DNA of 23,693 bases from Streptomyces roseifaciens (GTDB lineage: Bacteria; Actinomycetota; Actinomycetes; Streptomycetales; Streptomycetaceae). Shown here piece by piece: positions 7,935 to 23,693 of the stretch. The first letter of the stretch is position 1; each line of letters opens with the position of its first letter. The stretch covers positions 3,618,910-3,642,602 of the forward strand of contig NZ_LNBE01000004.1 in NCBI RefSeq assembly GCF_001445655.1, in the 5' to 3' direction. The notes beneath the pieces were generated by a model, which did not search any database, was not told the origin of the DNA, and worked only from the letters and a program-made list of their open reading frames with translations. The position numbers and the translations under genes are program-made.

Positions 7935-8792
7935 TCAGCGGCCCGCCATCTGCTCCAGGCGGGCGATGCGCTCCCCCATCGGCGGGTGGGTGGAGAACAG
8001 CTTGGTCATGCCGCCGCCCGCGCGGAACGGGTTCGCGATCATCATGTGGCTGGCCGTCTCGATGCGGGGCTCGGGCGGCAGGGGCAGCCGCTGCGTGCCC
8101 GCTTCGAGCTTGCGGAGGGCCGAGGCCAGGGCGAGGGGGTCGCCGGTGAGGCGGGCGCCGGAGGCGTCGGCCTCGTACTCGCGGGAGCGGCTGACGGCGA
8201 GCTGGATGACGGATGCCGCGATCGGGCCCAGCAGCATGATCATGATCATGCCGACGATGCCGGGGCCCTCGTCGTCGTCCGATCTGCCGAACGGGATCAG
8301 CCAGGCAAAGTTCACCAGGAACATCACCACCGAGGCGAGCGCGCCCGCGATCGAGGAGATGAGGATGTCGCGGTTGTAGACGTGGCTGAGCTCGTGGCCG
8401 ATGACGCCGCGCAGCTCGCGCTCGTCGAGCAGGCGGAGGATGCCGTCCGTGCAGCAGACGGCCGCGTTGCGGGGATTGCGGCCGGTCGCGAAGGCGTTGG
8501 GGGCCTCGGTCGGCGAGATGTACAGCCGGGGCATGGGCTGGCGGGCGGCCGTGGAGAGCTCGCGGACCATGCGGTAGAGCTGCGGCGCCTCGAATTCGCT
8601 GACGGGGCGGGCGCGCATGGCCCGCAGGGCCAGCTTGTCGCTGTTCCAGTAGGCGTAGGCGTTGGTGCCGAGTGCCACCAGGACGGCGACGATCAGGCCC
8701 GTACGCCCGAAGAGGCTGCCGATGACGATGATGAGTGCGGACAGCCCCCCGAGAAGGACTGCGGTCCTGAGCCCGTTGTGCCGGCGGTGCAC
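7935..8792 (-). CDS. htpX: HtpX-type membrane zinc metalloprotease
   Basis: A 285-residue M48-family protease of the cytoplasmic membrane that cleaves damaged or misfolded membrane proteins. The zinc-binding HELSH motif is at residues 133-137 and the third ligand Glu lies in SREYEADA at 203-210, both intact. Two N-terminal hydrophobic helices (about 10-27 and 31-48) and two central ones (about 145-165 and 178-200) give the usual topology. C-terminal [15 protein letters not shown] is family-typical. The GTG start at 8792 has GGAGGG about eight bases upstream. It stands alone in the same direction as the nuo2 operon, 172 bases from nuoN. Upstream there is a cluster of GTGGAA-type elements that might mediate stress control. 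Confidence 0.96.
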
Positions 8793-8964: not shown

Positions 8965-10494
8965 CTAGAGGAGCGCCCCCGAGGCGAAGCGCAGGACGAG
9001 CTGCGGGGCGCCCGACAGGGCGATGCCGGCCACGGCGGTGAGGGCGATGGCGGCTGCGAGCGGCATGGGGATGCGGACGTGCGCCGGCTCCCCTGCCGCC
9101 ACCTCTGCGCCCTCCGCGGCCTCCGCCGGGCGGAAGAGCACCGCCGTCCACTGCAGGTAGTAGTACAGGGCGATCACGACGTTGAGGGCCATGACGACCG
9201 CCAGCCAGCCCAGGCCCGCGTCGACGGCCACGGTGAAGACCGTGACCTTGGCGAAGAGGCCGATGACGCCCGGCGGCAGGCCAGCCAGGCAGAGCAGGAA
9301 GAAGCCCAGGGCGAGCGCCGCGAGCGGGCGGCGGGCGTAGAGGCCCCGGTAGTCCGTGATCCGGTTCTGCGGGCTCGTACGGGCCACCAGGGCGGCGACG
9401 GCGAAGGCACCGAGGTTCACGGCGGCGTACATCAGGGCGTACGCGACGGTGGAGCCGATGGCGTGCGCGGGGTCGTCGGCGTAGCCGGCGGCGGCGATGG
9501 GCACGAGCAGGTAGCCCGCCTGGCCCACGGAGGACCAGGCCAGGAGGCGGACGGCACTGTGGGCGCGCTCCGGGCGCTGGCGCAGCGCGGCGACGTTGCC
9601 GGCGGTCATGGTGACGGCGGCGAGCACGGCGAGGGCCGGGCCCCAGACACCGGAGTACGCGGGGAAGGCGACGACGGCGACGAGGATGAGGCCGGTGAAG
9701 CCGACGGCCTTGCCGATGACCGACAGGTAGGCGGCGACGGGCAGCGGCGCGCCCACGTAGGTGTCGGGCACCCAGAAGTGGAAGGGGACGGCCGCGGTCT
9801 TGAAGGCGAAGCCGACGAGGGTGAGGGCGACGCCGGTCTGCACGAGGGTGTCGAAGCGGGGGTCGACGTCGCCGAGCCGGGCCGCGATCTCGGTGAGGTG
9901 CAGGGTGCCGGTGGCCGCGTAGACGAAGCTGACGCCCAGGAGGGTGACGGCGGTCGCGGTGACCGAGGAGAGGAAGAACTTCAGGGCCGCCTCGGAGGAG
10001 CGGCGGTCGCCGCGGCGCAGGCCGACGAGGGCGAAGGCCGGCAGGGAGGCCACTTCGAGGGCCACGACGAGGGTCGCGAGGTCCCGGGAGGCGGGCAGCA
10101 GGGCGGCGCCCGCGGCGGAGGACAGCAGCAGGAACCAGAACTCCCCTTCGGGGAGTTCCTCGTCGCGGACGGCGCTCATGGACAGCAGGGCCGTCAGGAG
10201 GGCGCCGCCGAGCACCAGGAGCTGGATGACGAGCGTGAAGTCGTCGGCCGCGTAGCTGCAGGCGTGGCGTCCGGCGGAGGTGCCGGTGAGGCAGAACGTG
10301 GAGCGGTCGCCGTCGAGGAGCGGCAGCAGGGAGACTCCCGCGAGCAGCAGTCCGGCGACGGAGAACCAGCCGAGGAGCGGCTTGCGGCCCTCGGGGAGGA
10401 AGAGGTCGGCGACCAGGACGGCCAGCGCCACCACGGCGGTGACGGTGGGCGGTGCGATGGCGAGCCAGTCGACGGACTGGATCAGGGAGCCCAT
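8965..10494 (-). CDS. nuoN: Nuo2 complex I membrane subunit N
   Basis: A 509-residue antiporter-like proton-pumping subunit of the complex I membrane arm, with hydrophobic segments along its full length. Ion-path residues are kept: Glu147 in [16 protein letters not shown], Lys232 in [23 protein letters not shown], and Lys262 in VIGKAVGF. These correspond to the conserved helix 5, 7 and 8 charges of the family. ATG 10494 overlaps the nuoM stop (TGATG) and has GAGGAGG seven bases upstream. The much longer open frame upstream overlaps nuoM and is a shadow. It is the last gene of the nuo2 operon. It is called the second copy because the neighbouring cluster lacks nuoD, E, F and G; a complete cluster is expected elsewhere. 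Confidence 0.94.
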
Positions 10495-12083
10495 CAGTTG
10501 CCTCCTCGGAGGAGCTGCTGAACGGCCGGGTCGGTGAGGCCGAGGAGGGCCGCGGGCCAGAGTCCGGCGAGGACGGTGAGGGCGACGAGGGGGGTCCAGG
10601 CGGCGAACTCGTAGGACCGCACGTCGGCGGGTGCGTCCTCCGCGGTGCCGGCGGTCTGCGGCCGGGTGCTGCCGCCGTCGCCGCCCATGCACACGCGGCG
10701 GACGACCACGAGCATGTAGGCGGCCGTCAGGAGCGTGCCGAGGCCGGCCAGGGCCATGAACGTCAGGAACGCCGGGCGGCTGAGCCCCTCCGCCGGGCGG
10801 AAGGCGCCGAACATCGCGAGCATCTCGCCCCAGAAGCCGGCGAGCCCGGGCAGGCCGAGGGAGGCGATCGCGCCGAAGGCGAGGAGCCCGCCGAGGCGGG
10901 GCGCCTTGCCGTAGAGGGCGGCGCCGGTGCGGCCGGAGAGGGCGTCGAGGTCGCTGGTGCCGTAGCGGTCCTTGACCGCGCCGACCAGGAAGAAGAGGAG
11001 GCCGGTGATGAGGCCGTGGGCGATGTTGGCGAACAGCGCGCCGTTCACGCCCGTGGGGGTGAGCGTGGCGATGCCGAGCAGGACGAAGCCCATGTGGCCG
11101 ACGGAGGAGTACGCGATGAGGCGCTTGAGGTCGCCCTTCGCGCCCGACCGGGCCAGCGCCAGGCAGACCAGCGAGCCGTAGATGATGCCGACGGTCGCGA
11201 AGGCGGCGAGGTACGGCGCGAAGGTGTGCGCGCCGTCGGGGGCGATCGGCAGGACGATGCGGACAAAGCCGTACGTGCCCATCTTCAGCAGCACGCCCGC
11301 GAGCAGCACCGAGCCGACGGTCGGGGCGGCGGTGTGGGCGTCGGGCAGCCAGCTGTGCAGGGGCCACATGGGGGCCTTCACGGCCAGTCCGATGCCGATG
11401 GCGAGGACGGCGATGAGCTGCGTGGTGTGCCCGAGCGAGGCCCCGTTGTCAGTGGCGAGTGCCACCATGTCGAACGTGCCGCCCTTGATCCCGACCAGGA
11501 GGAGGCCGAGCAGCATCACGACGGAGCCGAGCAGCGTGTAGAGGATGAAGCGCCAGGCGGCGCGCTCCCTGCCCTCGCCGCCCCAGCGGGCGATGAGGAA
11601 GTACATCGGGATGAGCACCATCTCGAAGGCCAGGAAGAACAGCATCAGGTCGAGGACGGCGAAGGTCGCGAGGGTGCCGGCCTCGAGGACGAGGAGCAGC
11701 GCGACGAATGCCTTGGGAGACGGGCCCGCGGGCATTTTGAAGTAGCTGTACAGCGCGCAGAGGAAGGTCAGCAGCGCCGTCAGGACGAGGAGGGGGAGCG
11801 AGACGCCGTCCACGCCCAGGTGGATCCGGATGTTCAGGGCCGGGATCCAGCTGATGTCGGTGGTCGCCTGCATGCGGGCCGGGCTGTCGTGGTCGAAGCC
11901 GGCGGCGAGGGCGACGGTCAGCGCGAGGACGGCACCGGTGACGGTGACGCCGTGGCGCAGGACGGCCTGCTCGGGGCTCCTGCCCTTGAGGCCGGGCGGG
12001 GCCGGCAGCAGGGAGGCGACGGCGCCGACGAGGGGGAGGACGACGATCGCAGCGAGGAGGTACTGCATGACTGTGTGACTCAT
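10494..12083 (-). CDS. nuoM: Nuo2 complex I membrane subunit M
   Basis: A 529-residue antiporter-like subunit that forms one proton channel of the membrane arm. Diagnostic stretches are LMLFFLAFEMVLIPMYFLI, with Glu154, and LAVKAPMWPLHSWLPDAHTAAPTVGS, with Lys236. Lys267 follows in LLKMGTYGF. All three are the functional charges of NuoM, so pumping capacity looks intact. GLPGLAGFWGEMLAMFGAF is also family-typical. ATG 12083 has CGGAG eight bases upstream and follows the nuoL stop by two bases. The downstream end overlaps nuoN by one base. Length is normal. A continuous open frame to 14246 in this phase is antisense-like GC-rich shadow over nuoL. Confidence 0.95.
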   Translation of the reverse strand: MSHTVMQYLLAAIVVLPLVGAVASLLPAPPGLKGRSPEQAVLRHGVTVTGAVLALTVALAAGFDHDSPARMQATTDISWIPALNIRIHLGVDGVSLPLLVLTALLTFLCALYSYFKMPAGPSPKAFVALLLVLEAGTLATFAVLDLMLFFLAFEMVLIPMYFLIARWGGEGRERAAWRFILYTLLGSVVMLLGLLLVGIKGGTFDMVALATDNGASLGHTTQLIAVLAIGIGLAVKAPMWPLHSWLPDAHTAAPTVGSVLLAGVLLKMGTYGFVRIVLPIAPDGAHTFAPYLAAFATVGIIYGSLVCLALARSGAKGDLKRLIAYSSVGHMGFVLLGIATLTPTGVNGALFANIAHGLITGLLFFLVGAVKDRYGTSDLDALSGRTGAALYGKAPRLGGLLAFGAIASLGLPGLAGFWGEMLAMFGAFRPAEGLSRPAFLTFMALAGLGTLLTAAYMLVVVRRVCMGGDGGSTRPQTAGTAEDAPADVRSYEFAAWTPLVALTVLAGLWPAALLGLTDPAVQQLLRGGN

Positions 12084-12085
12084 GG

Positions 12086-14077
12086 TCAGGCTCCGGTGGC
12101 TACGAGCACGGCGGCGACGGCCAGGACGACGGAGCCGGCGAGCAGGGCGCTGAGGTAGGTCTGCACGTTGCCGGTCTGGGCGCGGCGGACGGCCGCGCCG
12201 AGCAGGCGGGGTGCCGTGCCCGCTCCGCGGACGTAGGCGTCGACGACCTCGCGGTCGAGGAACTGGGCGAGGCGGGCGGCCGCGCGCGTGGGCCGGACGA
12301 ACAGCGCCGAGTACACGGCGTCCAGGTGGAAGCCGGACGCGGCGTGGCGGTGCAGGGGGCCGAGGAGGGCCCGGCCGGGGTCGGCCGGGTCGGGTGCCGC
12401 CGCGATGTCGCCGTAGGCGGCCTCGTGGGTGGCGATGGTCTCCTCCTCGGAGACGTAGGGGGACGCGTCCGGGTCGGCGGCGACGGCACCGAGGGGGGTG
12501 CGGGCGGCGAGCGCGGCGGTGCGGCGCCAGGCCGCGTACATCACGATCGCGCCGGCGAGGGCGCAGCCGGTGGAGAGGACGGAGGTGGTGAGCGTCGGGG
12601 TGAGCGATCCGCCGTCGAACCAGTCGGGGAGCTTCCCGGCGGCGAGGCCGAGCCCGAGGGTGGGGAGGAACAGGATCCACAGGACGGTGTTCATGGCGGC
12701 GGGCTGCCTGCCGTGGTCGGCGGCCTCGGGGCCCTTGCCGCGGAAGGCCATCAGCCACAGGCGGCACGCGTAGGCGGCGGTGAGGAGCGCCGTGAGGAGC
12801 CCCGCGGTGAGGACGAGCCAGCCGGCCGCGCCCGGGATGCCCGCGGCGTCGCCTTCGGCGGCGTGCTCGGCCGCGCCGAGGACGGCCTCCTTGGAGAAGA
12901 AGCCGCTGAACGGGGGGATCGCGGCGAGCGCGAGGAGGGCGACGGTCATCGTCCAGTACGCGTCGGGGATGCGTTTGGCGAGGCCGCCCATGCGGGCCAT
13001 CGCGGCCAGCGAGTTCGTGCCGGCGGCGTGGATGATCACGCCCGCCCCGAGGAACAGGAGCGCCTTGAACGCGCCGTGCGAGACGAGGTGGAAGACGGCC
13101 GCGCCCCGGTTGCCGACGGCGAGGGCGCCGGTCATGTAGCCGAGCTGGCCCACGGTCGAGTAGGCGAGGACGCGCTTGATGTCGTCCTGGGCGAGGGCGG
13201 CGAGCGCCGAGCCGACCATCGTGACCGCGGCCATCACGGCGAGCACGACGAGCGCGGCCGCGGAGGCCGTGAAGAGCGGGAGGAGCCGGGCGACGAAGTA
13301 GACGCCGGCCGCGACCATCGTCGCGGCGTGGATCAGCGCGGAGACCGGCGTGGGGCCGGCCATCGCGTCGGGAAGCCACGTGTGCAGCGGGAACTGCGCG
13401 GACTTGCCCGCGACGCCGGCCAGGAGCAGCAGCGCGATCAGCGTGGGGTGGTCGATGTCCCCGGAGCCGACGGCGGTGAGGATGCCGTTGATCCGGAACG
13501 TCCCGGCGTCGGCGGCCAGCGCGAGGATGCCGATCAGGAAGGGGACGTCGCCGAGCTTGGTGACCAGGAACGCCTTGAGGGAGGCCGTGCGGGCGGCCTC
13601 CGTCTCCCAGTAGTGCCCGACCAGGAAGTACGAGCAGATGCCCATGATCTCCCAGCCGACCAGCAGCACCATGAGGTCGCCGGAGTAGACGACGAGCAGC
13701 ATGGCCGCGGTGAACAGGGAGACGAGGGCGGCGTAGGAGGGGTAGCGGGGGTCGTCGCGCAGGTAGGCCGTCGAGTAGGTCTGGACGCAGGTGGCGACGA
13801 CGCCGACCAGGACCGCGACGAGGACGGCGAAGCCGTCGAGGTGCAGGGCGAGGTCGATCGGCACGGAGCCGGTCGGGGTGAGCCGGGTGGCGGCGTCGAG
13901 CGCCTCGCCACCGCCCTGCCGCCAGGCGACGACGACGGCCAGGACCGCGGCGGCCGCGGTCGGCAGGACGGCCAGGGGGCGGACGAAACCGGGCGCGCGG
14001 CGGCCCGTCAGCAGGCCCGCGAGGGCGCCGAGGAAGGGCAGCAGGGGGACGAGAACGGCGGTGGTCGTGGTGCTCAC
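12086..14077 (-). CDS. nuoL: Nuo2 complex I membrane subunit L
   Basis: A 663-residue antiporter-like subunit, the distal proton channel, which in complex I also carries the long lateral helix at its C-terminus. Visible landmarks are [21 protein letters not shown] with Glu143, [43 protein letters not shown] with Lys225 and His250, and the helix 8 broken segment. These charges are those of active NuoL. A segment at about 480-560 is hydrophilic and rich in Asp, Ala and Glu ([26 protein letters not shown]). It precedes the last helices and is longer than I expect for E. coli NuoL. GTG 14077 overlaps the nuoK stop (GTGA), indicating translational coupling. Confidence 0.94.
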
Positions 14078-14445
14078 GCGGCGGCCTCGGCCTTCTCCTC
14101 GCGGTCTGCGCGATCGGTGTCGGGTCCGGTGTCGGGGGCGTCGTCGCGCAGGTCGCGCAGGCGGTCGACGTCGGCGGTGCCGCGGTTGCGGTGGACCTGC
14201 AGCACGATCGCCAGGCCGATGCCGATCTCCGCGGCGGCGATGGCAATGGTGAAGAGGGTCAGCGCCTGGCCGGCGTGCAGCTCGTCGCGCAGCCACACGT
14301 CGAACGCGACCAGGTTGAGGTTGACGGCGTTGAGCATCAGCTCGACGGACATCAGGACGAGGATCGCGTTGCGCCGGGCGAGGACGCCGTACAGGCCCGT
14401 GCAGAAGAGGAGGGCGGCCAGGACGGCCGGGTAGACGAGATGCAT
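14074..14445 (-). CDS. nuoK: Nuo2 complex I membrane subunit K
   Basis: A 123-residue subunit with three transmembrane helices. The two buried glutamates essential for proton transfer are present: Glu35 in [18 protein letters not shown] and Glu73 in [18 protein letters not shown]. The protein is about 20 residues longer than the roughly 100-residue norm. The extra part is a charged C-terminal tail (about 85-123) rich in Asp, Arg and Glu that would face an aqueous side. The start ATG at 14445 overlaps the nuoJ stop by one base (TGATG), and the stop overlaps the nuoL start. The charged tail parallels tails on NuoC and NuoI of the same cluster. Confidence 0.95.
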
Positions 14446-15020
14446 CAGCGCTGCGCCCCTTCCCGGCTCTTCCTGCGGGAGAGGACCACCGCGCCGACGA
14501 GCGCGGCCAGCAGCAGGACGGACAGGGCCTCGAAGGGCAGCACCCAGTGCCGGAAGAGGATCTCGCCCGAGACCTTCGTCGTGCCCTGGGGGGCGTCGCC
14601 GTCCAGGCCGATCCAGGTCGTGCGGAAGGCGTCGGCGACCACCCACACGAGGGCGGCGGCCGCGGCCACGGCGACCCCGAGGGCGACCCAGCGGTTGCCG
14701 GAGTCGGCGTCCGGGGAGCGGCCGATCGGCGCCTTGGTGAGCATCAGGCCGAAGAGGAGGAGGACGACCACCGAGCCGACGTAGATCAGGACCTGTACCC
14801 AGGCGATGAACTCCGCCGTCAGCAGCAGGTACTCCACGGCCAGCCCGCCGAGGGCGACGACCAGCCACAGGGCGGCGTGCACGAGCTGCTTGGTGGTGAC
14901 GGTCACGACGGCCGCGCCGAGGGTGACGAGGCCGACGAGGAGGAAGACGATCTCGACGCCGGTCGGGGAGAGGAAGCCGTGCGCGTCCGTACTCGCGGCG
15001 AACGTCATTGCGCCGGTCAT
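14445..15020 (-). CDS. nuoJ: Nuo2 complex I membrane subunit J
   Basis: A 191-residue membrane subunit with five predicted helices. The most conserved part, [25 protein letters not shown] (about 70-94), contains the helix 3 region that changes conformation during coupling. ATG 15020 is supported by GGAGGGAG about seven bases upstream and overlaps the nuoI stop (ATGA). A second ATG at 15008 lacks such a site. The C-terminus RKSREGAQR is basic. Length is within the family range. Confidence 0.94.
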
Positions 15021-15610
15021 GCGTCTCCCTCCTTCTCCTGCTTCTCCTGCTTCTCCTGCTGCTCCAGTTCCGCCTGCTTCTCCTGCTCCGCCTGCGCGGC
15101 CAGCTTCTCCGCCGTCTTGCGGGCCGCCGCGACCTCCTTCGGCTCCTCGGCCGCCGGATCCAGCGCGGGCGGCTCCGGCACGGTCCACATCCACTCGCGG
15201 AGCTTGTCGCGCTCGTGGACGAGGTCCTGGATGTCGGTCTCGGCGTACTCGAACTCCGGCGACCAGAACAGTGCGTCGAAGGGACACACCTCGATGCAGA
15301 TGCCGCAGTACATGCACAGCGAGAAGTCGATCGCGAAGCGGTCGAGGACGTTGCGGCTGCGCTCGCGGCCGCCCGGGGCGGCCGGGGGCACCGTCTCCTT
15401 GTGGGAGTCGATGTAGATGCACCAGTCCGGGCACTCCCGGGCGCACAGCATGCAGACCGTGCAGTTCTCCTCGAACAGCCCGATCACGCCGCGGGTGCGC
15501 GGCGGGAGCTCGGGCTGCACGTCCGGGTACTGCGCGGTGTGCGCGCGGCGCGTCATCGTGCGGAGCGTGACGGCCAGGCCCTTGGCGAGGCCGGAACCGG
15601 GAAGGCCCAC
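15017..15610 (-). CDS. nuoI: Nuo2 complex I subunit I, two [4Fe-4S] clusters
   Basis: A 197-residue peripheral subunit that relays electrons toward the quinone site through two ferredoxin-type clusters. The first cluster is [12 protein letters not shown] (Cys50, 53, 56, 60). The second is [12 protein letters not shown] (Cys99, 102, 105, 109). All eight cluster cysteines are present. The C-terminus from about 150 is a charged, Ala/Glu/Lys/Gln-rich tail ending in a KQE-type repeat encoded by three exact 9-bp units. The GTG at 15610 overlaps the nuoH stop (TAGTG). The downstream end overlaps nuoJ. In a complex lacking NuoE/F/G, this subunit is the natural entry point for electrons from ferredoxin. 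Confidence 0.95.
15032..15058. repeat. Three 9-bp tandem repeats in the nuoI tail
   Basis: CTTCTCCTG occurs three times head to tail (15032-15040, 15041-15049, 15050-15058), encoding QEK repeats near the NuoI C-terminus, with degenerate copies beyond. Slippage could change tail length without frameshift. Confidence 0.85.
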
Positions 15611-16575
15611 TACTGGGTCACCACCTTGACGACGCCCGTCAGCGCGATCTGCGCCAGGGCGAGGGGGATGAGGACGGTCCAGGCCAGCTTCTGCAGCTGG
15701 TCCTCGCGCAGGCGCGGATAGGTCACCCGCAGCCAGATCACGACGAAGGCCAGGACGGCCGCCTTGAGCAGCGTCCACACCCAGCCCATGCCGTCGCCAC
15801 CGAACGGGCCGTGCCAGCCGCCGAGGAACAGGACCGTGGTCAGACCGCACAGGACGACGATGCCCGCGTACTCGGACAGCAGGAACAGTGCGAAGCGCAG
15901 GCCCGTGTACTCGGTGTACGCGCCGAAGATGATCTCGGAGTCGGCCACCGGCATGTCGAACGGCGGGCGCTGCAGCTCGGCCAGGCCCGCCACGAAGAAG
16001 ACCACCGCGCCGACGATCTGCCACGGCACCCACCACCACTGGAACGCGTCCACGATCCCGGACAGCGAGACCGTGCCCGCCGCCATGGCCACGCTCGCCG
16101 CGGCCAGCAGCATCGGCAGCTCGTACGCCATCAGCTGGCCCGCGGTGCGCAGGCCGCCCAGCAGCGAGAACTTGTTCGCGGACGCCCAGCCCGCCATCAG
16201 CGAGCCGAGGACTCCGACGCCCATCACGGCCAGGACGAAGAAGATGCCCGCGTCCACGGCCTGGCCCACGGCGTTGCCCGGCCCGACCGGGATCGCCAGC
16301 AGGACCAGGAGGTACGGGAGGAGGGCGACCGCCGGCGCCAGCTGGAAGATCCGCCGGTCCGCGCCCGCGGGGACGATGTCTTCCTTCTGCGCGAACTTCA
16401 CGCCGTCCGCGACGAGCTGGGCCCAGCCGTGGAAACCGCCGGCGTACATCGGGCCGAGGCGGCCCTGCATGTGCGCCATCACCTTGTGCTCGGTCTGGCC
16501 GACGACCAGGGGCAGCACGAGGAAGGCGACGAAGACGGCGAGGAGGCGCAGGACGACGTCGAGTGTGTCGCTCAT
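15610..16575 (-). CDS. nuoH: Nuo2 complex I membrane subunit H
   Basis: A 321-residue membrane subunit that forms the quinone access chamber together with NuoB and NuoD. Conserved stretches are [31 protein letters not shown] (36-66) and [40 protein letters not shown] (197-236), the acidic coupling loop. Usual members read AEAESE where this has VADSE, a conservative change. Eight hydrophobic segments are visible. ATG 16575 overlaps the nuoC stop by four bases. The gene order here jumps from nuoC to nuoH with no room for nuoD, E, F or G. Confidence 0.96.
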
Positions 16576-18445
16576 GCGGGGTCGCCTCCGGCGGGGTTCG
16601 TGTCGTTCTTGGGCTCGCCGCCACCGGCGCCTCCGGCTGCGCCGGGGGCTTCCTCGTCGGCGGGTGAGCTCGGCACCGCCGGGCTCCGACGCTCGGGCTG
16701 GACGCCGTCGCGGCGGGAGGGGGGACGCGGCCCGCCACCGGGAGCAGAGGTCTCCCCGGCTGCGCCGGGGGACGCCTCGTCGGCGGGGCTGCTCGGCACC
16801 GCCGGATCCCGGTGCTCCGGCTCGGCGCCGTCGCGGCAGGCAGGAGCGCTCGGCTCGGCCTCGGGCTCCGGGGTGACCGGGGCACCGTCGGACGAGGGCT
16901 TCTCGGCTGCGCCGGAGGGCGCCTCGTCGGCGGGGCTACTCGGCACCGCCGGATCCCGGTGCTCGGGCTCGGCGCCGTCGCGGCGGGCAGGAGCGCTCGG
17001 CTCGGCCTCGGGCTCCGGGGTGACCGGGACCTCGCCGGACGGGGGCTGCTCGGCTGCGCCGGAGGGCGCCTCGTCGGCGGGACTGCTCGGCACCGCCGGA
17101 TCCCGGTGCTCCGGCTCGGCGCCGTCGCGGCGGGCAGGAGCGCTCGGCTCGGCCTCGGGCTCCGGGGTGACCGGGACCTCGCCGGACGGGGGCTGCTCGG
17201 CTGCGCCGGAGGGCGCCTCGTCGGCAGTGCTCGGTTCCGCCTCGGGGGTTTTGGGTGACGGCGGTTCCGGGGTTGTCGGGGGCTGGTCGGGGCTGGGCTT
17301 CGGGGGTTCCTCGAAGGCCGGGCGGGCGTGGTGCCAGGGGGCGTCGGAGGAGCGGGGGCGCGGCTTCTCCCCCGTCTCGGCGGGGCGTCCCGCCTCCGTC
17401 TGGCTCGCCGAGCCGTCGGACGCACTGCGCGCGCGCCGCGGAGCTGCGGGCTCCGCCTGGCTCGCCGAGCCGTCCGCCGCGCTGCGGGTACGCCGCGGGG
17501 CGGGCTCCGCGCCCTGCCGGTTTGCGGAGCCGTCTGCGGCGCCGCGGGCGGGGGCCTCCGTCTGGCTGGCCGAACCGTCTGCCGCACTGCGGGCGCGGCG
17601 CGGCGCGGCCGCAGCTTCCGGCTGGCTGGCCGAGCCCTCCGACGCCGTGCGGGTACGGCGCGGCGCGGCCGCGGCCGCGGCCTCCGGCTGGCTCGCCGAG
17701 CCCTCCGACGCCGTGCGGGCGCGGCGGACCGGGCGGTCGCCTGCGGCGCGCGCGGCGCGGGCCGGGCGGGCGGGGGCCGGGGGGAGCTGGCCCTTGAGGG
17801 GGCCCCATTCGTTGGGGTCGGGGACGCCCGGGGGAAGCATCTGGCGCCGCTTGGGGCCGCCTTCCGCCGCCTCCCCCGGCTCCTTGGCGCCCGGCCAGGC
17901 CTTGACCACCCGCGCCGCCAGGACGAAGTCCTTGCGCAGCGGGTGGCCCTCGAAGGCGTCCGGGAGGAGGAGCGGGACGAGGTGCGGGTGGCCCGGGAAG
18001 TCGATGCCGAACATCTCGTGGGTCTCGCGCTCGTGCCACGCCGCGCCCGCATAGACGCCGACAGCAGTGGCCAGCGCAGGCGCCTCGTGCGGCACGGTGG
18101 TGCGCAGGAGCAGGCGGCGCATGCCCTCGCCCCCGCCCGGGAGGGCACCCGGCAGCGCGGCCAGGTGCGCGCAGACGCGGAAGCCCGTACCGGGCTCGTC
18201 CACGGCGCTCAGCCAGTCGAAGAAGGTGCAGCCCAGCCGGTCCCGGGCCGTTTCGAGGGCGGTGATCCACCGCTCGGCCGGGACGTCGACCGTGAGCAGG
18301 TCGTAGGTCTCCTCGGCCGTCGCGCCTTCGCCGAAGAGCGAGATCACTCCGGCCGGCAGCCAGCCGACGGCAAGGTCGGCAACGGGCTCGGGAGCGGGAG
18401 CGGGCTCGGAAGCGGCCTCCGGCACGGACTCGGGCGTCGGCTCGG

Positions 18446-18449
<4 letters not shown>
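16572..18449 (-). CDS. nuoC: Nuo2 complex I subunit C with giant repeat-built tail
   Basis: A 625-residue protein; usual NuoC is about 200-250 residues. The genuine NuoC domain occupies about 25-180. It ends with the signature [18 protein letters not shown] and [17 protein letters not shown] (138-175), which normally contacts NuoD, NuoB and NuoI. From about 195 on the chain is low complexity and rich in Pro, Ala, Glu, Ser and Arg, with no membrane or fold signature. It holds six GSA[SN]-centred units (242-353) and then three nearly identical 49-residue units plus degenerate ones (409-625). ATG 18449 overlaps the nuoB stop (ATGA). No nuoD sequence is fused to it. The tail may be a flexible docking or crowding arm; its function is unknown. 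Confidence 0.9.
16662..17225. repeat. 147-bp tandem repeats within nuoC
   Basis: Copies lie at 17079-17225, 16932-17078 and 16785-16931, exactly 147 bp (49 codons) apart, so the frame is kept. I count about three differences between the first two copies. The third differs more, and a shortened 123-bp derivative follows at 16662-16784. The marker GGATCCCGGTGCT recurs at 16804, 16951 and 17098. The encoded unit begins [10 protein letters not shown] and ends RDPAVPSSP. Confidence 0.95.
17391..17726. repeat. Degenerate GSA[SN]-unit repeats within nuoC
   Basis: Six copies of a [SA][DE]GSA[SN] core are each preceded or followed by an RRxRSA- or RRxRTA-type basic patch and an Ala-rich linker (NuoC residues 242-353). 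Spacing varies from 15 to 22 residues, so it is a diverged array, older than the 147-bp array beside it. Confidence 0.8.
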
Positions 18450-19044
<595 letters not shown>

Positions 19045-19048
<4 letters not shown>

Positions 19049-19455
19049 GTCCACTCCAGGACGCCCTTCTTCCATGCGTACAACAAGCCCACGGCGAGGA
19101 AGCCGAGGAAGATGAACATCTCCACGAGCGTGGCTCCGCCGAAGCCCGGCGCGGCGAAGACCGTCGCCCAGGGGAACAGGAAGATCGAGTCCACCGCGAA
19201 GATCACGTACAGGAAGGCGTAGACGTAGTAGCGGATCTGGGTGTGGGCCCAGCCCTCGCCGACGGGGTCGACGCCGCACTCGTACGTCAGCAGCTTCTCG
19301 GGCGTCGGCACGACGGGCCGCAGCAGCCGCCCGGCCCCGAAGGCCACGGCCACGAAGAGCACCCCGACGACCGCGAGCAGCCCCACCACGGAATAGCTCT
19401 GGAAGTAGTCCGCAGCCAGCGGGACAGCGGCATGGGCATCGGCAGTACTGCGCAC
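19045..19455 (-). CDS. nuoA: Nuo2 complex I membrane subunit A
   Basis: A 136-residue subunit with three transmembrane helices. The helix 1-2 loop carries the conserved [15 protein letters not shown], with Cys60, which lies near the quinone cavity in complex I. In helix 2 the usual FDxE acidic pair reads [12 protein letters not shown], so only one acid (Asp) remains. This may be an idiosyncrasy of the second copy. I chose GTG 19455 because GGAGG (19461-19465) lies five bases upstream. A GTG at 19470 gives five more residues with a poorer site. It is the first gene of the ten-gene operon, with the promoter region to its right shared with the divergent kinase gene. Confidence 0.92.
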
Positions 19456-19460
19456 GGTCG

Positions 19461-19465
19461 CCTCC
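19461..19465 (-). promoter_or_regulatory. Ribosome site that fixes the nuoA start
   Basis: GGAGG on the minus strand, five bases before GTG 19455. It lies inside the coding frame that would arise from the alternative GTG at 19470. Confidence 0.6.
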
Positions 19466-19520
19466 GGCACGTCCGCCCCTCGCTCCCTGTCCTGCGTGTT
19501 CGACGTTCTGTACGCACGGG

Positions 19521-19560
19521 AGTCTAGGCCCTGGTGGGGTTATCCCCACCCTTCCCCACC
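19521..19560. promoter_or_regulatory. nuo2 promoter -10 and dyad operator
   Basis: On the minus strand TAGACT (complement of 19521-19526) fits the TAGRRT -10 of HrdB-type promoters and would start nuo2 transcription about 60 bases before nuoA. No good -35 exists. Instead the -35 zone is occupied by GGTGGGGTTATCCCCACC (19533-19550), a perfect 7-bp dyad around TTAT, with a further CCCCACC half site at 19554-19560. This arrangement suggests a regulator acting at the -35 position. The divergent kinase gene starts 49 bases away. Confidence 0.5.
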
Positions 19561-19608
19561 CACGGCCCCCATGGCGGTGGGCCCCGGAGGCCGTGCAGGC
19601 TTGGGCTT

Positions 19609-20892
19609 ATGACCGCCAGCAGTGCCGCGAGAAGTACGCCGAACAGCACGTCGAACAACGCGTCGAGCACATCGCATACATCGCACACATCACAAACATC
19701 ACATATCACCGGAAGCACCGCTTCCAGGGACGAGGCCGACGGCGGTGACCGGCTTCCTCCCGCCCGCTTCGCCTTCGACGCCCGGACGTGGAAGGAGGTC
19801 GCGCACCTGCTGCTCAACCTGCCGGAGGCGCTCACCGGCTTCGTCTACGTGTCCCTGTGGCTCTACGCGGGCGTCCTGACGTCCCTCACGGTGATCGGCC
19901 TGCCCCTGCTCGCGGTGGGCCTGATGGGCGCGCGGGCGCTCGGCCGGCTGGAGCGCCGGCGGGCGCGGGCGCTGCTGGGGCTGCGGATCGAGGAGCCGAG
20001 CCGGCTCTCCCGGCAGCAGCGGGGCCGGGGCTTCTTCCCCTGGCTGTGGACGACGCTGAAGGACCCGGTCGCCTGGCGCACCACCCTCTACGGCTTCATC
20101 CGGCTGCCCTGGGGCATCCTCACCTTCGTCCTCACGCTGTGCCTGCTCTTCGTCGGCTGGCCGCTCCTCGGCCACGTCGCGCGCGGCATGACGAACCTGG
20201 ACCGCGCCATGGTGCGCGGCCTGCTCAGCCCCTCCAGCGAGCTGGAGCGGCGGATCGCCGAGCTGGAGCAGGACCGCGGCGTGGTCGTCGACACCGCCGC
20301 CGCCGACCTGCGCCGCATCGAGCGCGACCTGCACGACGGCGCCCAGGCCCGCCTCGTCGCACTCGCGATGGGGCTGGGCCTGGCCAAGGAGAAGGTGCTG
20401 GAGGACCCGGAGGCGGCGGCGCGGATGGTAGACGAGGCGCACGGCGAGGTGAAGCTCGCCCTGCAGGAGCTGCGCGACCTGGCCCGCGGCATCCACCCGG
20501 CCGTCCTCACGGACCGCGGCCTGGACGCGGCCCTGTCGTCGGTGGCGGCGCGCTGCACGGTGCCGGTGTCCGTCTCCGTCGACCTGGCCGAGCGGCCCGC
20601 ACCGGCCATCGAGGGCATCGCGTACTTCACGGTCTCCGAGCTCCTGCAGAACATCAGCAAGCACAGCCGGGCGCGGACGGCCGAGGTCGAGCTGTGGCGC
20701 AAGGACCGGCGGCTGCTGATCCAGGTGCGCGACGACGGCCGCGGCGGCGCCTCGACGGACTCGGGCACCGGGCTGGCCGGGCTCGCGGAGCGGCTGGGCT
20801 CGGTCGACGGCCTGTTCGAGGTGGACTCGCCGCCCGGCGGCCCGACCGTCGTCACGGCGGAGCTGCCGTGGCGCGAGCGCACGGCGGGCTGA
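19609..20892 (+). CDS. Membrane sensor histidine kinase 1 (NarX/DesK type)
   Basis: A 427-residue kinase. Residues 1-55 are a polar Ser/Thr/Asn/His tail containing a TSH repeat. About 60-195 contains a putative-sensor membrane domain with two hydrophobic pairs (75-108 and 160-190) and almost no extracytoplasmic loop. A HisKA_3 phosphoacceptor follows: RRIERDLHDGAQARLVALAM, with His242. The HATPase domain shows TVSELLQNISKHS (N box, Asn348), DDGRGGA (375-381) and GTGLAGLAERL (386-396). It is expected to phosphorylate the response regulator encoded downstream. ATG 19609 is the only plausible start, but its ribosome site is poor. It is paralogous to the next gene, with stretches of identical DNA. 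Confidence 0.88.
   Translation: MTASSAARSTPNSTSNNASSTSHTSHTSQTSHITGSTASRDEADGGDRLPPARFAFDARTWKEVAHLLLNLPEALTGFVYVSLWLYAGVLTSLTVIGLPLLAVGLMGARALGRLERRRARALLGLRIEEPSRLSRQQRGRGFFPWLWTTLKDPVAWRTTLYGFIRLPWGILTFVLTLCLLFVGWPLLGHVARGMTNLDRAMVRGLLSPSSELERRIAELEQDRGVVVDTAAADLRRIERDLHDGAQARLVALAMGLGLAKEKVLEDPEAAARMVDEAHGEVKLALQELRDLARGIHPAVLTDRGLDAALSSVAARCTVPVSVSVDLAERPAPAIEGIAYFTVSELLQNISKHSRARTAEVELWRKDRRLLIQVRDDGRGGASTDSGTGLAGLAERLGSVDGLFEVDSPPGGPTVVTAELPWRERTAG
19669..19704. repeat. Four 9-bp AT-rich units at the kinase 1 N-terminus
   Basis: ACATCGCAT, ACATCGCAC, ACATCACAA and ACATCACAT follow head to tail. They encode Thr-Ser-His or Thr-Ser-Gln units with ACA and TCA codons that are rare in Streptomyces. 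Local GC is far below the surroundings. Confidence 0.85.
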
Positions 20893-20900
20893 GAGCCCGC
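20884..20900 (+). terminator. Small hairpin at the kinase 1 stop codon
   Basis: GCGGGCT-GAG-AGCCCGC has a perfect 7-bp stem and spans the TGA stop at 20890-20892. It is followed by the 21-bp repeat array. It may slow or partly terminate transcription. Confidence 0.4.
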
Positions 20901-20907
20901 TCCTCCG

Positions 20908-20997
20908 GGCCTGCGCCCCCTTACCGCAGGCCTGCGCCCTGTTCCCACAGGCCGGCGCCCTGTCTCCACAGACCGGCGCCCTCTTCCCGCAGGCCGG
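20908..20997. repeat. Four 21-bp tandem repeats between the two kinase genes
   Basis: Units at 20908-20928, 20929-20949, 20950-20970 and 20971-20991 share the pattern GRCCKGCGCCCnnTnnCCRCA, followed by a 6-base partial copy. The 220-base gap holds no gene. The period equals two DNA helical turns, so repeats face the same side of the helix, as in arrays of regulator sites. It could also be a decayed coding repeat. Confidence 0.85.
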
Positions 20998-21112
20998 GGG
21001 TAGGGACAGCCCCACCCCCGGAACACCTACTCGCTCCATGGTCCGGAGCCCCGTCCTCCGCGAGCCTTGAGGTACGGAGCAACCACCGCGACCCGGGAGA
21101 TCGGACGACGAC

Positions 21113-22453
21113 ATGGCCATGGACTACAGGGACTACGGCCGGGCGGAGGCACGCCGGGCCCCCCACCGGGTGCCCGCCGTACTGCGCGCGCCCCTGGAGG
21201 GCCGCACCTGGCGCGAGTTCCTCTACCTCCTGCTCAGCCTGCCGATGGCGGTCCTCACCTTCTCGTACGCGGTGACGATGACGGCGGCGGGCATGGGCCT
21301 GCTGATCACCTTCGTGGGCGTGCCCGTGCTGGCCGCCGCGCTGGTCGGCGTACGGGCGCTGGGCGCCGTCGAGCGGGCCCGCGCCCGGGCCCTGCTGAAG
21401 CTGGAGATCAGCGAGCCCGAGCCGGTGCGGCCGCGGAACGGCCGCCGCGGGCTCATGCCGTGGGTCGGGGCGCTCCTCAAGAGCGGCGTGTCCTGGCGGC
21501 ACGTGCTCTACGCGGTGCTGCACCTGCCGTGGGCGATCGGGGCGTTCACCGTCTCGGTCGTGATGTGGTCGGTCGGCTGGATGCTGTTCCTCTATCCGGC
21601 GTACTGGTGGATGTACCCGAAGTGGTGGGGCCAGCCCGGCATGCAGTTCGGCGGCGACTCCGAGCACGACGCGGGCCTCTTCGTCGACAACCCCTTCGAG
21701 ATCGGCGTGACCTGCCTCGCCGGCCTGCTCGTGGTGCTGGCCACCCCGTGGGTGATCCGCGGCCTCGCCTCCGTCGACCGGCTGCTGGTGAGCGGCCTGC
21801 TCGGCCCCTCGCGGCTCGCGGAGCGGGTGTGGGAGCTGGAGGAGGACCGCGGCGTGGTCGTGGACACCGCCGCCGCCGACCTGCGCCGCATCGAGCGCGA
21901 CCTGCACGACGGCGCCCAGGCCCGCCTCGTTGCCCTGGCCATGGACCTGGGCCTGGCCAAGGAGAAGCTGGAGGAGGACCCGGAGGCGGCCGCCCGGATG
22001 GTCGACGACGCGCACGGCGAGGTGAAGCTCGCCCTGCAGGAGCTGCGCGACCTGGCCCGCGGCATCCACCCGGCGATCCTCACCGACCGGGGCCTCGGCC
22101 CGGCCCTGTCCGCGCTGGCGGCCCGCTGCACGGTGCCGGTGCAGGCCGAGGCGGACCTGCCGGACCGGCCCGCGCCGGCCATCGAGGGCATCGCGTACTT
22201 CACGGTCTCCGAGCTCCTGCAGAACATCAGCAAGCACAGCGGGGCCCGCAGCGCCCGCGTGGACGTGTGGCGCTCGGGGAGCCGCTTGATGCTCCAGGTG
22301 TGGGACGACGGCCGCGGCGGGGCGTCCACGGCCGGGGGCAGCGGGCTGGCCGGGCTCGCGGAGCGGCTGGGCTCGGTGGACGGCCTGCTGGTGGTCGACT
22401 CGCCGGAGGGCGGGCCGACGACGGTCACCGCGGAGCTGCCCTGGCGCGGCTGA
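21113..22453 (+). CDS. Membrane sensor histidine kinase 2 (paralogue of kinase 1)
   Basis: A 446-residue kinase with the same layout as kinase 1: a short N-terminal tail, sensor membrane domain (about 35-215), HisKA_3 box RRIERDLHDGAQARLVALAM with His265, and HATPase domain with TVSELLQNISKHS, DDGRGGA and SGLAGLAERL. It differs by an extra segment at about 160-197 between the last two membrane helices. This is very aromatic (YPAYWWMYPKWWGQPGMQ) and followed by an acidic GDSEHDAGLF. It probably forms an extracytoplasmic sensing loop that kinase 1 lacks. ATG 21113 is used; ATG 21119 is an alternative, and neither has a strong ribosome site. It lies between kinase 1 and the response regulator on the same strand. 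Confidence 0.9.
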   Translation: MAMDYRDYGRAEARRAPHRVPAVLRAPLEGRTWREFLYLLLSLPMAVLTFSYAVTMTAAGMGLLITFVGVPVLAAALVGVRALGAVERARARALLKLEISEPEPVRPRNGRRGLMPWVGALLKSGVSWRHVLYAVLHLPWAIGAFTVSVVMWSVGWMLFLYPAYWWMYPKWWGQPGMQFGGDSEHDAGLFVDNPFEIGVTCLAGLLVVLATPWVIRGLASVDRLLVSGLLGPSRLAERVWELEEDRGVVVDTAAADLRRIERDLHDGAQARLVALAMDLGLAKEKLEEDPEAAARMVDDAHGEVKLALQELRDLARGIHPAILTDRGLGPALSALAARCTVPVQAEADLPDRPAPAIEGIAYFTVSELLQNISKHSGARSARVDVWRSGSRLMLQVWDDGRGGASTAGGSGLAGLAERLGSVDGLLVVDSPEGGPTTVTAELPWRG

Positions 22454-22506
22454 CCCCGTCCCACCCGCGCCCGGGCCCCGTCGTACAGCGGCGGGGCCTG
22501 CTCCCT

Positions 22507-22533
22507 GCGTGACATGCTTAGCGCGTCACATGC
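22507..22533. promoter_or_regulatory. 11-bp direct repeat before the response regulator
   Basis: GCGTGACATGC (22507-22517) and GCGTCACATGC (22523-22533) match at 10 of 11 bases. They also contain GTGAC/GTCAC as an inverted pair. They lie 38-64 bases before the regulator start, a good position for autoregulation. Binding is speculative. Confidence 0.4.
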
Positions 22534-22560
22534 TGCCGGCGCGGGGGGACCACAGGTCGT

Positions 22561-22565
22561 GGAGG
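22561..22565 (+). promoter_or_regulatory. Ribosome site that fixes the response regulator start
   Basis: GGAGG lies five bases before GTG 22571. Longer starts at 22514 or 22559 would include this site and the 11-bp repeats in the coding region. Confidence 0.6.
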
Positions 22566-22570
22566 ACAGG

Positions 22571-23230
22571 GTGCGAGTCGTCATCGCCGAGGATTCGGTG
22601 CTCCTCCGGGAGGGTCTGACCCGGCTGCTGACCGACCGGGGCCACGACGTCGTGGCGGGCGTCGGCGACGGCGAGGCGCTGATCAAGGCCATCCGGGAGC
22701 TCGCCGACGAGGGCGCCCTGCCGGACGTGGTCGTGGCGGACGTACGCATGCCGCCCACCCATACGGACGAAGGCGTGCGCGCCGCGGTGCAGCTGCGCAA
22801 GGAGCACCCGGGCCTGGGTGTGCTGGTCCTGTCGCAGTACGTGGAGGAGCAGTACGCGACGGAGCTGCTGGCGGGCAGCAGCACGGGCGTGGGCTACCTG
22901 CTCAAGGACCGGGTGGCCGAGGTCCGCGAGTTCGTGGACGCGGTGGTGCGGGTGGCGCGCGGCGGCACCGCGCTGGACCCCGAGGTCGTCGCCCAGCTGC
23001 TGGGCCGCAGCCGGAAGCAGGACGTGCTCGCGGGGCTCACACCGCGCGAGCGGGAGGTGCTCGGCCTGATGGCGGAGGGGCGTACGAATTCGGCCGTCGC
23101 CAAGCAGTTGGTGGTGAGCGACGGAGCCGTCGAGAAGCACGTCAGCAACATCTTCCTGAAGCTTGGGCTTTCCCCTAGTGACGGGGATCACCGGCGGGTG
23201 CTGGCCGTGCTGACCTACCTCCGCTCCTGA
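22571..23230 (+). CDS. NarL/LuxR-type response regulator
   Basis: A 219-residue two-component regulator. The receiver domain (1-120) has the acidic pocket Glu7-Asp8, phosphoacceptor Asp57 in VVVADVRMPP, Ser88 in LVLSQY and Lys112 in YLLKDR. The C-terminal LuxR/GerE helix-turn-helix is LTPREREVLGLMAEGRTNSAVAKQLVVSDGAVEKHVSNIFLKLGL (156-200). It should be the DNA-binding partner of the two adjacent kinases, one regulator serving two sensors. GTG 22571 is preceded by GGAGG at five bases, giving the family-typical start MRVVIAEDSVLLREG. Targets are unknown; candidate sites are the local repeats and the dyad in front of nuoA. A hairpin follows the gene. Confidence 0.94.
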   Translation: MRVVIAEDSVLLREGLTRLLTDRGHDVVAGVGDGEALIKAIRELADEGALPDVVVADVRMPPTHTDEGVRAAVQLRKEHPGLGVLVLSQYVEEQYATELLAGSSTGVGYLLKDRVAEVREFVDAVVRVARGGTALDPEVVAQLLGRSRKQDVLAGLTPREREVLGLMAEGRTNSAVAKQLVVSDGAVEKHVSNIFLKLGLSPSDGDHRRVLAVLTYLRS

Positions 23231-23258
23231 TCCTCTGATACTCCGTCAGCTATGGACA

Positions 23259-23282
23259 GCCGCCCTGGTGAGAGGGGGCGGC
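23259..23282 (+). terminator. Terminator after the response regulator
   Basis: GCCGCCC and GGGCGGC form a 7-bp stem with a 10-base loop, 28 bases after the stop. No U-tract. Confidence 0.6.
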
Positions 23283-23285
23283 CGC

Positions 23286-23329
23286 GCGAGGACCCGGCAC
23301 CGAGGACGCGAGGACCTAGCACCAAAGAC
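23286..23329. repeat. Two 22-bp direct repeats
   Basis: Units 23286-23307 and 23308-23329 both begin GCGAGGACC and match at 18 of 22 bases. They lie in the gap between the regulator and korA. The rest of this 296-base gap holds a possible TACGAT -10 near 23456-23461 for korA, without a good -35; no gene was seen. Confidence 0.7.
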
Positions 23330-23526
23330 CTAGAGGGCGGGCGTGGGGCGCGCGGCGTTCAGGGGACGCCGAAACCGCCCCATACCCGGACAAGCGGAAG
23401 CCGTATGCCCCGCTTCCTCTTGTGATCCATCCCAGGTAGGCAGCCCTTACCCACGTACGATGGCCCGTGGGAACGCCGGTCGGGCACCACCGTGTGCGCG
23501 CCGCCGCCAGAGGGAGGTCCGAAGCA

Positions 23527-23693
23527 GTGACCAGCCAGGTCAGCAGCCCGGCCGAACAGGCCGAACCAGCCGAGCAGCCGGGCGGGGCAGCCGCCCCGCC
23601 GAGCGCGGGACAGGCGCCGTCGCCCCTCACCGCGCAGCGCGACCCCGCCGAAGGGGCCGCCTCCTCCAAGGAGGTGCGCCGGCTGGACAGGGT
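23527..23693 (+). CDS. korA: 2-oxoacid:ferredoxin oxidoreductase alpha subunit (N-terminal fragment)
   Basis: The gene is cut by the right edge; 55 codons are visible. It starts at GTG 23527 with GGAGG nine bases upstream. The protein begins MTSQVSSPAEQAEPAEQ, continues through an Ala/Pro-rich stretch, and reaches KEVRRLDR at the edge. As I remember them, streptomycete KorA proteins have this same variable leader, followed by KEVRRLDRVIIRFAGDSGDGM, the start of the gamma/alpha domain. The enzyme oxidises 2-oxoglutarate or related acids with CoA and reduces ferredoxin; korB would follow. Identification rests on the leader and position only, because the conserved domain lies outside the window. 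Confidence 0.72.
   Translation, partial: MTSQVSSPAEQAEPAEQPGGAAAPPSAGQAPSPLTAQRDPAEGAASSKEVRRLDR

Follow-up and report, generated by a model that had tools for sequence, protein, structure and literature searches.

A second complex I gene set without NuoE, NuoF and NuoG in Streptomyces roseifaciens, its separated NuoD2 and probable partner MidA, and relatives that lack the membrane arm

We analyzed a 23,693-nucleotide stretch of the Streptomyces roseifaciens genome (NZ_LNBE01000004.1, positions 3,618,910 to 3,642,602; hereafter the window), which is the terminal stretch of contig C4 in an 8.6-Mb assembly and stops at the contig end. Its minus strand carries, from 8965 to about 19470, ten genes for subunits of complex I in the order nuoA2-B2-C2-H2-I2-J2-K2-L2-M2-N2, here called the nuo2 cluster. 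The nuo1 cluster, including nuoD1, is on contig C7. The nuo2 series begins with nuoA2 (19045..19470; NCBIfam NuoA, E 1.2e-35), the start codon of which is uncertain, followed by nuoB2 (18446..18982; NCBIfam NuoB, E 2e-67), nuoC2 (16572..18449; Pfam PF00329, E 1.4e-30), nuoH2 (15610..16575; NCBIfam NuoH, E 3e-91), and nuoI2 (15017..15610; NCBIfam NuoI, E 1e-29), whose product has two 4Fe-4S motifs and an amphipathic N-terminal segment. The remaining genes are nuoJ2 (14445..15020; NCBIfam NuoJ, E 1e-33), nuoK2 (14074..14445; NCBIfam NuoK, E 5e-35), nuoL2 (12086..14077; NCBIfam NuoL, E 4e-149), nuoM2 (10494..12083; NCBIfam NuoM, E 9e-164), and nuoN2 (8965..10494; NCBIfam NuoN, E 3e-92). NuoC2 ends in a long, repetitive tail of about 400 residues rich in proline, alanine and acidic residues; the DNA encoding this tail (16757 to 17726) contains tandem repeats, among them a 147-bp unit in 3.2 copies.

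The genes are tightly packed, as an earlier note made from the letters of this stretch had described. Seven of the nine junctions overlap as first annotated, by 1 to 7 bases, and with the likely start codons they lie between a 4-base overlap and a 2-base gap. If nuoC2 is started at the ATG at 18449, which overlaps the nuoB2 stop codon, nuoB2 and nuoC2 overlap as well. The 62-bp gap at nuoA2-nuoB2 is the exception. At the nuoC2-nuoH2 junction, where nuoD is placed outside the host's class, the two genes overlap by 4 bp and nothing is left between them. The cluster contains no gene for NuoE, NuoF or NuoG, so the lack of an NADH-oxidizing module in the cluster stands; a genome search for NuoF (PF01512) returned the nuo1 copy and two other, unlinked matches.

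The iron-sulfur ligands are complete, again as described earlier. Translation and alignment show all four cluster cysteines in NuoB2, the ligands of [4Fe-4S] cluster N2, and all eight in NuoI2. The proton-path charges, said to be kept in every membrane subunit, were checked at a few motifs in 36 supplied loci, in part of which the motifs could be parsed. The listed variants retain the glutamates of NuoK2 and NuoL2 as well as the ECG motif of NuoA2, but in NuoH2 the first glutamate of the "PFDLPE" loop is replaced by valine, isoleucine or leucine in 12 of 12 listed variants (22 loci).

The missing nuoD was the unusual feature in the earlier note, which suggested looking for a second copy. The absence holds for the cluster, but not for the genome. 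A NuoD-family search returned nuoD1, a remote HycE-like protein, and a 383-amino-acid open reading frame 1.7 Mb from nuo2, which we call NuoD2. It begins 13 bp after a gene for a PF02636 methyltransferase (MidA; E 2.4e-16, above the curated cutoff) and is 89 to 96% identical to 120 listed homologues, most of them from named Streptomyces. With NuoD2, the genome encodes all subunits of an 11-subunit, E/F/G-less complex I (A, B, C, D, H, I, J, K, L, M, and N), ten of them clustered and one elsewhere.

To follow NuoD2 across the host's class, we used one draw of 118 genomes and counted NuoD2, NuoH2 and NuoI2 among the matches listed. Orthologues were called at a break in identity and coverage: at least 61% versus at most 46% for NuoH2, at least 45% versus at most 40% for NuoI2, and for NuoD2 at least 46%, plus three full-length matches at 41 to 46% (G041, G056, and G100), versus matches of at most 44% that end at residue 300 to 308 or so. 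NuoD2 is found in 55 of the 118 genomes and NuoH2 in 34, all of which carry NuoD2. NuoI2 is also found in 55, together with NuoD2 in 54, giving 56 genomes with the system in 21 family codes; the two mismatched genomes are assemblies of 91% and 93% completeness. NuoD2 and NuoI2 also agree in presence and absence within the families that hold both states (f15 and f28). In one genome (G111, locus L129), nuo2 is the sole complex I, with single matches for NuoB, NuoD, NuoH, and NuoM and no KorA match.

Outside the class, nuoD2 is usually still in the operon. A draw of 149 genomes from the phylum contained NuoI2 orthologues (56% identity or more) in 59; weak NuoI matches of 32 to 41% in 11 further genomes, all of family f43, represent another kind of complex. 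Among 20 loci opened, one was of the other kind (L194, with tyrosine at the position discussed below) and one was cut, leaving 18 readable loci. Fifteen of these have the order nuoA-B-C-D-H-I-J-K-L-M-N, with a NuoD2-type nuoD between nuoC and nuoH. The simplest history would start from an 11-subunit operon that included midA; in the host's class, nuoD2 and midA would then have left it, a direction that we infer.

The methyltransferase follows NuoD2 closely. MidA is present in 55 of the 118 class genomes, in 53 of them with NuoD2. Of 20 nuoD2 loci opened, 18 have it upstream of nuoD2 and in the same orientation, no more than about 5 kb off; in the other two (L080 and L084) it was not seen. In nine of the ten Streptomyces genomes, at most 0.3 kb separates MidA from nuoD2, and in the tenth the distance is about 7 kb. 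Outside the class, MidA directly follows nuoN2 in 4 of the 18 readable loci. The MidA-type enzyme NDUFAF7 methylates R85 of NDUFS2, the arginine beside N2 (PMC3829151, PMC8042128). At this target position, within the HRGxE motif, all 55 NuoD2 proteins have arginine and all 21 NuoD1 proteins have threonine, as in Thermus. NuoD2, rather than NuoD1, is thus the plausible substrate, and we infer that MidA acts on its arginine. One of two genomes with a MidA match and no NuoD2 (G066) has a NuoD1 with threonine at the target position (L208); the locus of the other (G059) is L146.

The acceptor site of NuoD2 differs from that of NuoD1. In Nqo4, the residues that hold the head group of the quinone are His38 and Tyr87 (PMC7684303). 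Alignment to Nqo4 places tryptophan at the Tyr87 position in 55 of 55 class NuoD2 proteins, and His38 is kept in 54. The tryptophan also occurs in all 15 in-operon NuoD2 proteins outside the class, at each of the 17 actinobacterial loci from named records that have a NuoD, in all 120 homologues listed for a NuoD2 of a genome outside the class, and in 119 of the 120 listed for the NuoD2 found here (the remaining one was not parsed). Tyrosine occupies the position in 21 of 21 NuoD1 proteins. Among 26 loci with another kind of NuoD, including one from Rubrobacter, 23 have tyrosine; the motif is spaced differently in two, and the last went unparsed.

Many relatives lack the membrane arm. We defined arm-free genomes as those with no NuoH2, no linked NuoM2, and no other match to NuoA, NuoH or NuoJ through NuoN beside the nuoB2-nuoC2-nuoI2 trio, with two exceptions: G026 keeps nuoA2 and pieces of nuoH2, and G014 has nuoB2-nuoC2 and nuoI2 on different contigs. 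NuoM2 was sought in 22 genomes with part of the system and no NuoH2, along with four controls. Because NuoM2 is present in G060, this genome was placed with the full sets; a second NuoM-like protein (43%) lies elsewhere in G026, and G093 gave no match at the cutoff. The 56 genomes thus divide into 35 full and 21 arm-free sets. In the arm-free genomes only the trio remains at the locus, with NuoD2 (20 of 21; the genome without it, G004, is a 93%-complete assembly) and usually MidA elsewhere in the genome. KorA is within 10 kb of the arm-free locus in 12 cases, htpX is next to the trio in 8, and nuoN1 is within 1 to 7 kb in 6. Among named organisms, Actinosynnema pretiosum carries the arm-free trio. 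Composition-filtered open reading frames around eight loci of the class and one from a named record (L101 listed no frame) were inspected by eye, without a family search, and no new conserved redox partner beside the trio was recognized.

Two of the losses are recent. The one-contig genome G026 retains nuoA2, nuoB2, nuoC2, nuoI2, and only two short nuoH2 pieces; in G014 nuoI2 is followed by htpX and a congener (G074) has the full set. In a NuoD2 tree, made quickly and containing several long branches, both are nested among full types and three changes are needed. A single origin of the arm-free state was therefore dropped; the older cases may represent one loss or several.

Identity to the full-type consensus was computed for segments picked after viewing the alignments, which cover 46 of the 56 genomes each for NuoB2, NuoC2, and NuoI2 and 55 for NuoD2; the means include partial full-type NuoB2 rows from two genomes (G005 and G029) at contig ends. 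Which segments face the membrane or the quinone was assigned by what is generally known of complex I. Across the older cases, 19 in all and 18 for NuoD2, the iron-sulfur motifs remain at 0.81 to 0.90, or 0.81 to 0.92 with the NuoD2 HRGAEK and tryptophan segments. Against 0.80 to 0.90 in full types, identity has fallen to 0.32 in the NuoB2 amphipathic helix, 0.23 in the NuoB2 quinone-cavity loop, 0.15 in the NuoI2 N-terminal segment, and 0.26 in the NuoD2 segment facing NuoH and quinone. The NuoD2 b1-b2 loop (0.66 versus 0.98) and C terminus (0.54 versus 0.94) are intermediate. The two recent losses still show 1.00 and 0.90 in the NuoB2 membrane-side segments, with the NuoI2 N terminus already at 0.58.

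The persistence of the peripheral core without the arm indicates that it has an activity worth keeping, and since the faces toward membrane and quinone are lost, the module is more likely to be soluble. The peripheral module of the arm-free relatives is therefore probably a soluble, ferredoxin-linked oxidoreductase. Arm-free NuoB2, NuoC2, NuoD2, and NuoI2 could instead dock on the nuo1 membrane arm, giving one pump with two interchangeable peripheral arms. The trio close to nuoN1 at 6 of the 21 loci and the intact NuoB2 segments in the two recent losses would fit such docking, but the erosion of the membrane and quinone segments in the 18 to 19 older cases, beside well-kept iron-sulfur motifs, would not, and we regard docking as a minority possibility.

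Two further explanations were considered. Exchange of NuoL2 and NuoM2 into the 14-subunit complex, with no separate Nuo2 enzyme, was suggested by analogy with cyanobacteria (PMC3765725). It would not account for a full separate set including NuoB, NuoC, NuoD, and NuoI, for a peripheral set that persists where NuoL2 and NuoM2 are gone, or for G111, which has nuo2 only, and we consider it improbable. That nuo2 is a decaying duplicate without function could draw on the absence of the membrane genes from some lineages, but conservation already contradicts it: the system is kept in 21 family codes, with the NuoB2 and NuoI2 cluster ligands intact in the aligned rows. In addition, the products of SCO4599-SCO4608 were reported in Streptomyces coelicolor, in an earlier proteome study, as more abundant than in Streptomyces lividans (PMC9739823), contrary to the absence of translated Nuo2 proteins that the earlier note had named as a test of its idea. 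We give decay hardly any credence.

Nuo2 was previously proposed to be fed by KorAB, a 2-oxoacid:ferredoxin oxidoreductase. The korA start near nuo2 is real, and only about 55 codons are seen (23527..23693, plus strand) before the contig end cuts the gene; the peptide KEVRRLDR is common to it and to the full KorA on contig C6, and other Streptomyces also have KorA close to nuo2. That full gene, in a different setting, is the sole match to the POR family in the assembly. The two korA genes (window 23527-23693; L039 262-2208) have differing N termini. Near-identical korAB copies may have caused the contig break inside the window korA.

Distances to KorA were read from match and locus coordinates, and for the window genome the partial korA was used. 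Of the 56 genomes with the system, 34 have KorA no more than 10 kb from nuoB2 or nuoI2. In 16 others it is on another contig, in two it is on the same contig but far away, and in four there is no match; only one of the 35 full sets is without KorA, so nuo2 without korAB, which the earlier note had thought telling if common, is infrequent. However, 45 of the 62 genomes that lack the system also have KorA, and in 12 opened genomes without nuo2, korA is within 3 kb of htpX in eight and near nuoN1 in five. Because korA keeps similar neighbors without nuo2, the adjacency may be an inherited position, and KorAB was dropped as a diagnostic partner. KorAB may feed Nuo2, for which adjacency is weak evidence.

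The earlier proposal as a whole, in which Nuo2 borrows NuoD1 and forms a ferredoxin:quinone pump fed specifically by KorAB, draws on that adjacency. It conflicts with a dedicated NuoD2 that tracks nuo2 (55 of 56 genomes) and sits in the operon at 15 of 18 loci outside the class, and with the similar korA neighbors and KorA-free genomes just described; we consider it very improbable. A donor other than ferredoxin, either reduced F420 or flavodoxin, is unlikely. Fpo uses F420H2, but the FrhB/FpoF-type C domain (PF04432) had no match in the window genome, and F420 input through an Fpo-type FpoF/FrhB subunit was dropped as a candidate. Flavodoxin falls outside that search and has a precedent in Campylobacter complex I (PMC11238625).

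Overall, we favor, with a probability of about 0.7, an E/F/G-less complex I, likely supplied by ferredoxin, with a separated NuoD2 and MidA and a peripheral module able to persist after the membrane arm is lost. The cluster would provide ten of 11 subunits, with NuoD2 as the eleventh, its gene having departed from between nuoC and nuoH together with that of MidA, a likely assembly methyltransferase; both are now 1.7 Mb away. MidA would probably dimethylate the NuoD2 arginine next to N2, as mitochondrial NDUFAF7 does on its substrate. Electrons would probably enter at the two NuoI2 clusters from reduced ferredoxin, of which KorAB is one plausible source, and pass through N2 in NuoB2 to menaquinone at a site formed by NuoB2, NuoD2, and NuoH2. 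This transfer would drive ion pumping by the membrane arm. With tryptophan in place of the head-group tyrosine, the acceptor step would not be the textbook one. For the Streptomyces set, the likeliest function is thus a ferredoxin-to-menaquinone pump with an acceptor step modified by tryptophan. In arm-free relatives, NuoB2, NuoC2, NuoD2, and NuoI2 would persist, in the older ones without membrane and quinone faces, through a useful activity of their own.

Several points weigh against this reading. That NuoD2 joins Nuo2 is suggested by co-occurrence, in counts uncorrected for phylogeny, and by operon order elsewhere, and 3 of the 18 loci outside the class have no nuoD in the operon, as in Streptomyces. 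MidA and nuoD2 are on opposite strands in 8 of the 10 Streptomyces genomes and so form no single operon there; NuoD2 occurs without MidA in two genomes (G100 and G110), and MidA without NuoD2 in two others (G059 and G066). The tryptophan makes a normal quinone site doubtful, and the assignment of ferredoxin as donor, reasonable by family precedent, is by analogy only. A broader proposal is more tentative still, at somewhat less than even odds: that an ancient lineage of complex I exists in Actinomycetota, with a retooled acceptor site (Trp) and a dedicated arginine methyltransferase, in which the NuoB-C-D-I core became autonomous, soluble and ferredoxin-linked and the arm was shed at least three times.

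The genes flanking nuo2 in the window include an htpX-like M48 peptidase (7935..8792, minus strand; Pfam PF01435), a frequent neighbor of nuo2 or korA. Two sensor kinases and one response regulator (19717..23230, plus strand; Pfam) lie between nuo2 and korA, and their S. coelicolor counterparts are AbrC1/C2/C3, SCO4598-4596 (PMC9739823). AbrC-type genes occupy this position in most Streptomyces loci opened, in part in G007, and were not seen in G076 or most other nuo2 loci opened. A third complex-I-like cluster in the same genome (L008 999-8415, contig C3) encodes antiporter-like (PF00361) and NuoH-like (PF00146) proteins and a HycE/NuoD-like protein without the CxxC motif, which therefore probably has no [NiFe] site.

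The Streptomyces nuo2 cluster, SCO4599-SCO4608, has been described in print (PMC3765725, PMC8388888, PMC9239103), as has the separated nuoD2 (PMC3765725, PMC8388888). Its function was called unclear (PMC9239103) or attributed speculatively to subunit exchange (PMC3765725), and NuoC and NuoL, both found here, were said to be lacking (PMC9239103). The accessible portions of these accounts make no mention of MidA, the tryptophan, the 11-gene operon outside the class, or arm-free forms. A search of the open-access literature likewise found nothing on any of these four features. The two arms of complex I are usually regarded as parts of a single machine, neither meaningful without the other, and the removal of the membrane arm here appears to be a natural experiment. 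The retained four-subunit core would hold three [4Fe-4S] clusters, and its most conserved quinone residue had already changed. Two questions become testable in this way: which activity a quinone-binding module can have when it drives no pump, and which roles the head-group tyrosine and the methylated arginine next to N2 play. A testable role is also offered for a Streptomyces cluster, adjacent to the AbrC antibiotic regulator genes, that has been sequenced many times without being explained.

Among known systems, cyanobacterial NDH-1 and archaeal Fpo are also 11-subunit, complex I-like enzymes without NuoE, NuoF and NuoG. Another is the 11-subunit Desulfitobacterium enzyme (PMC11238625). These enzymes share with nuo2 the set A-B-C-D-H-I-J-K-L-M-N and an iron-sulfur path from NuoI to NuoB. 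Unlike them, nuo2 has the tryptophan, a nuoD that in the class is split from the operon, a MidA partner, and many relatives with no arm. The methyltransferase resembles NDUFAF7/MidA acting on NDUFS2 R85 (PMC3829151, PMC8042128) in its PF02636 family and in the HRGxE target arginine of NuoD2; unlike NDUFAF7, this candidate methyltransferase is bacterial, and its link is with a second complex I instead of the main enzyme. The membrane-bound complex I relative MBS of Pyrococcus also lacks the quinone tyrosine (PMC7684303). MBS lacks the histidine as well, which 54 of 55 NuoD2 proteins keep, and has a membrane arm in the cell, yet its purified cytoplasmic subcomplex is active (PMC7684303), so a soluble, arm-free module is possible.

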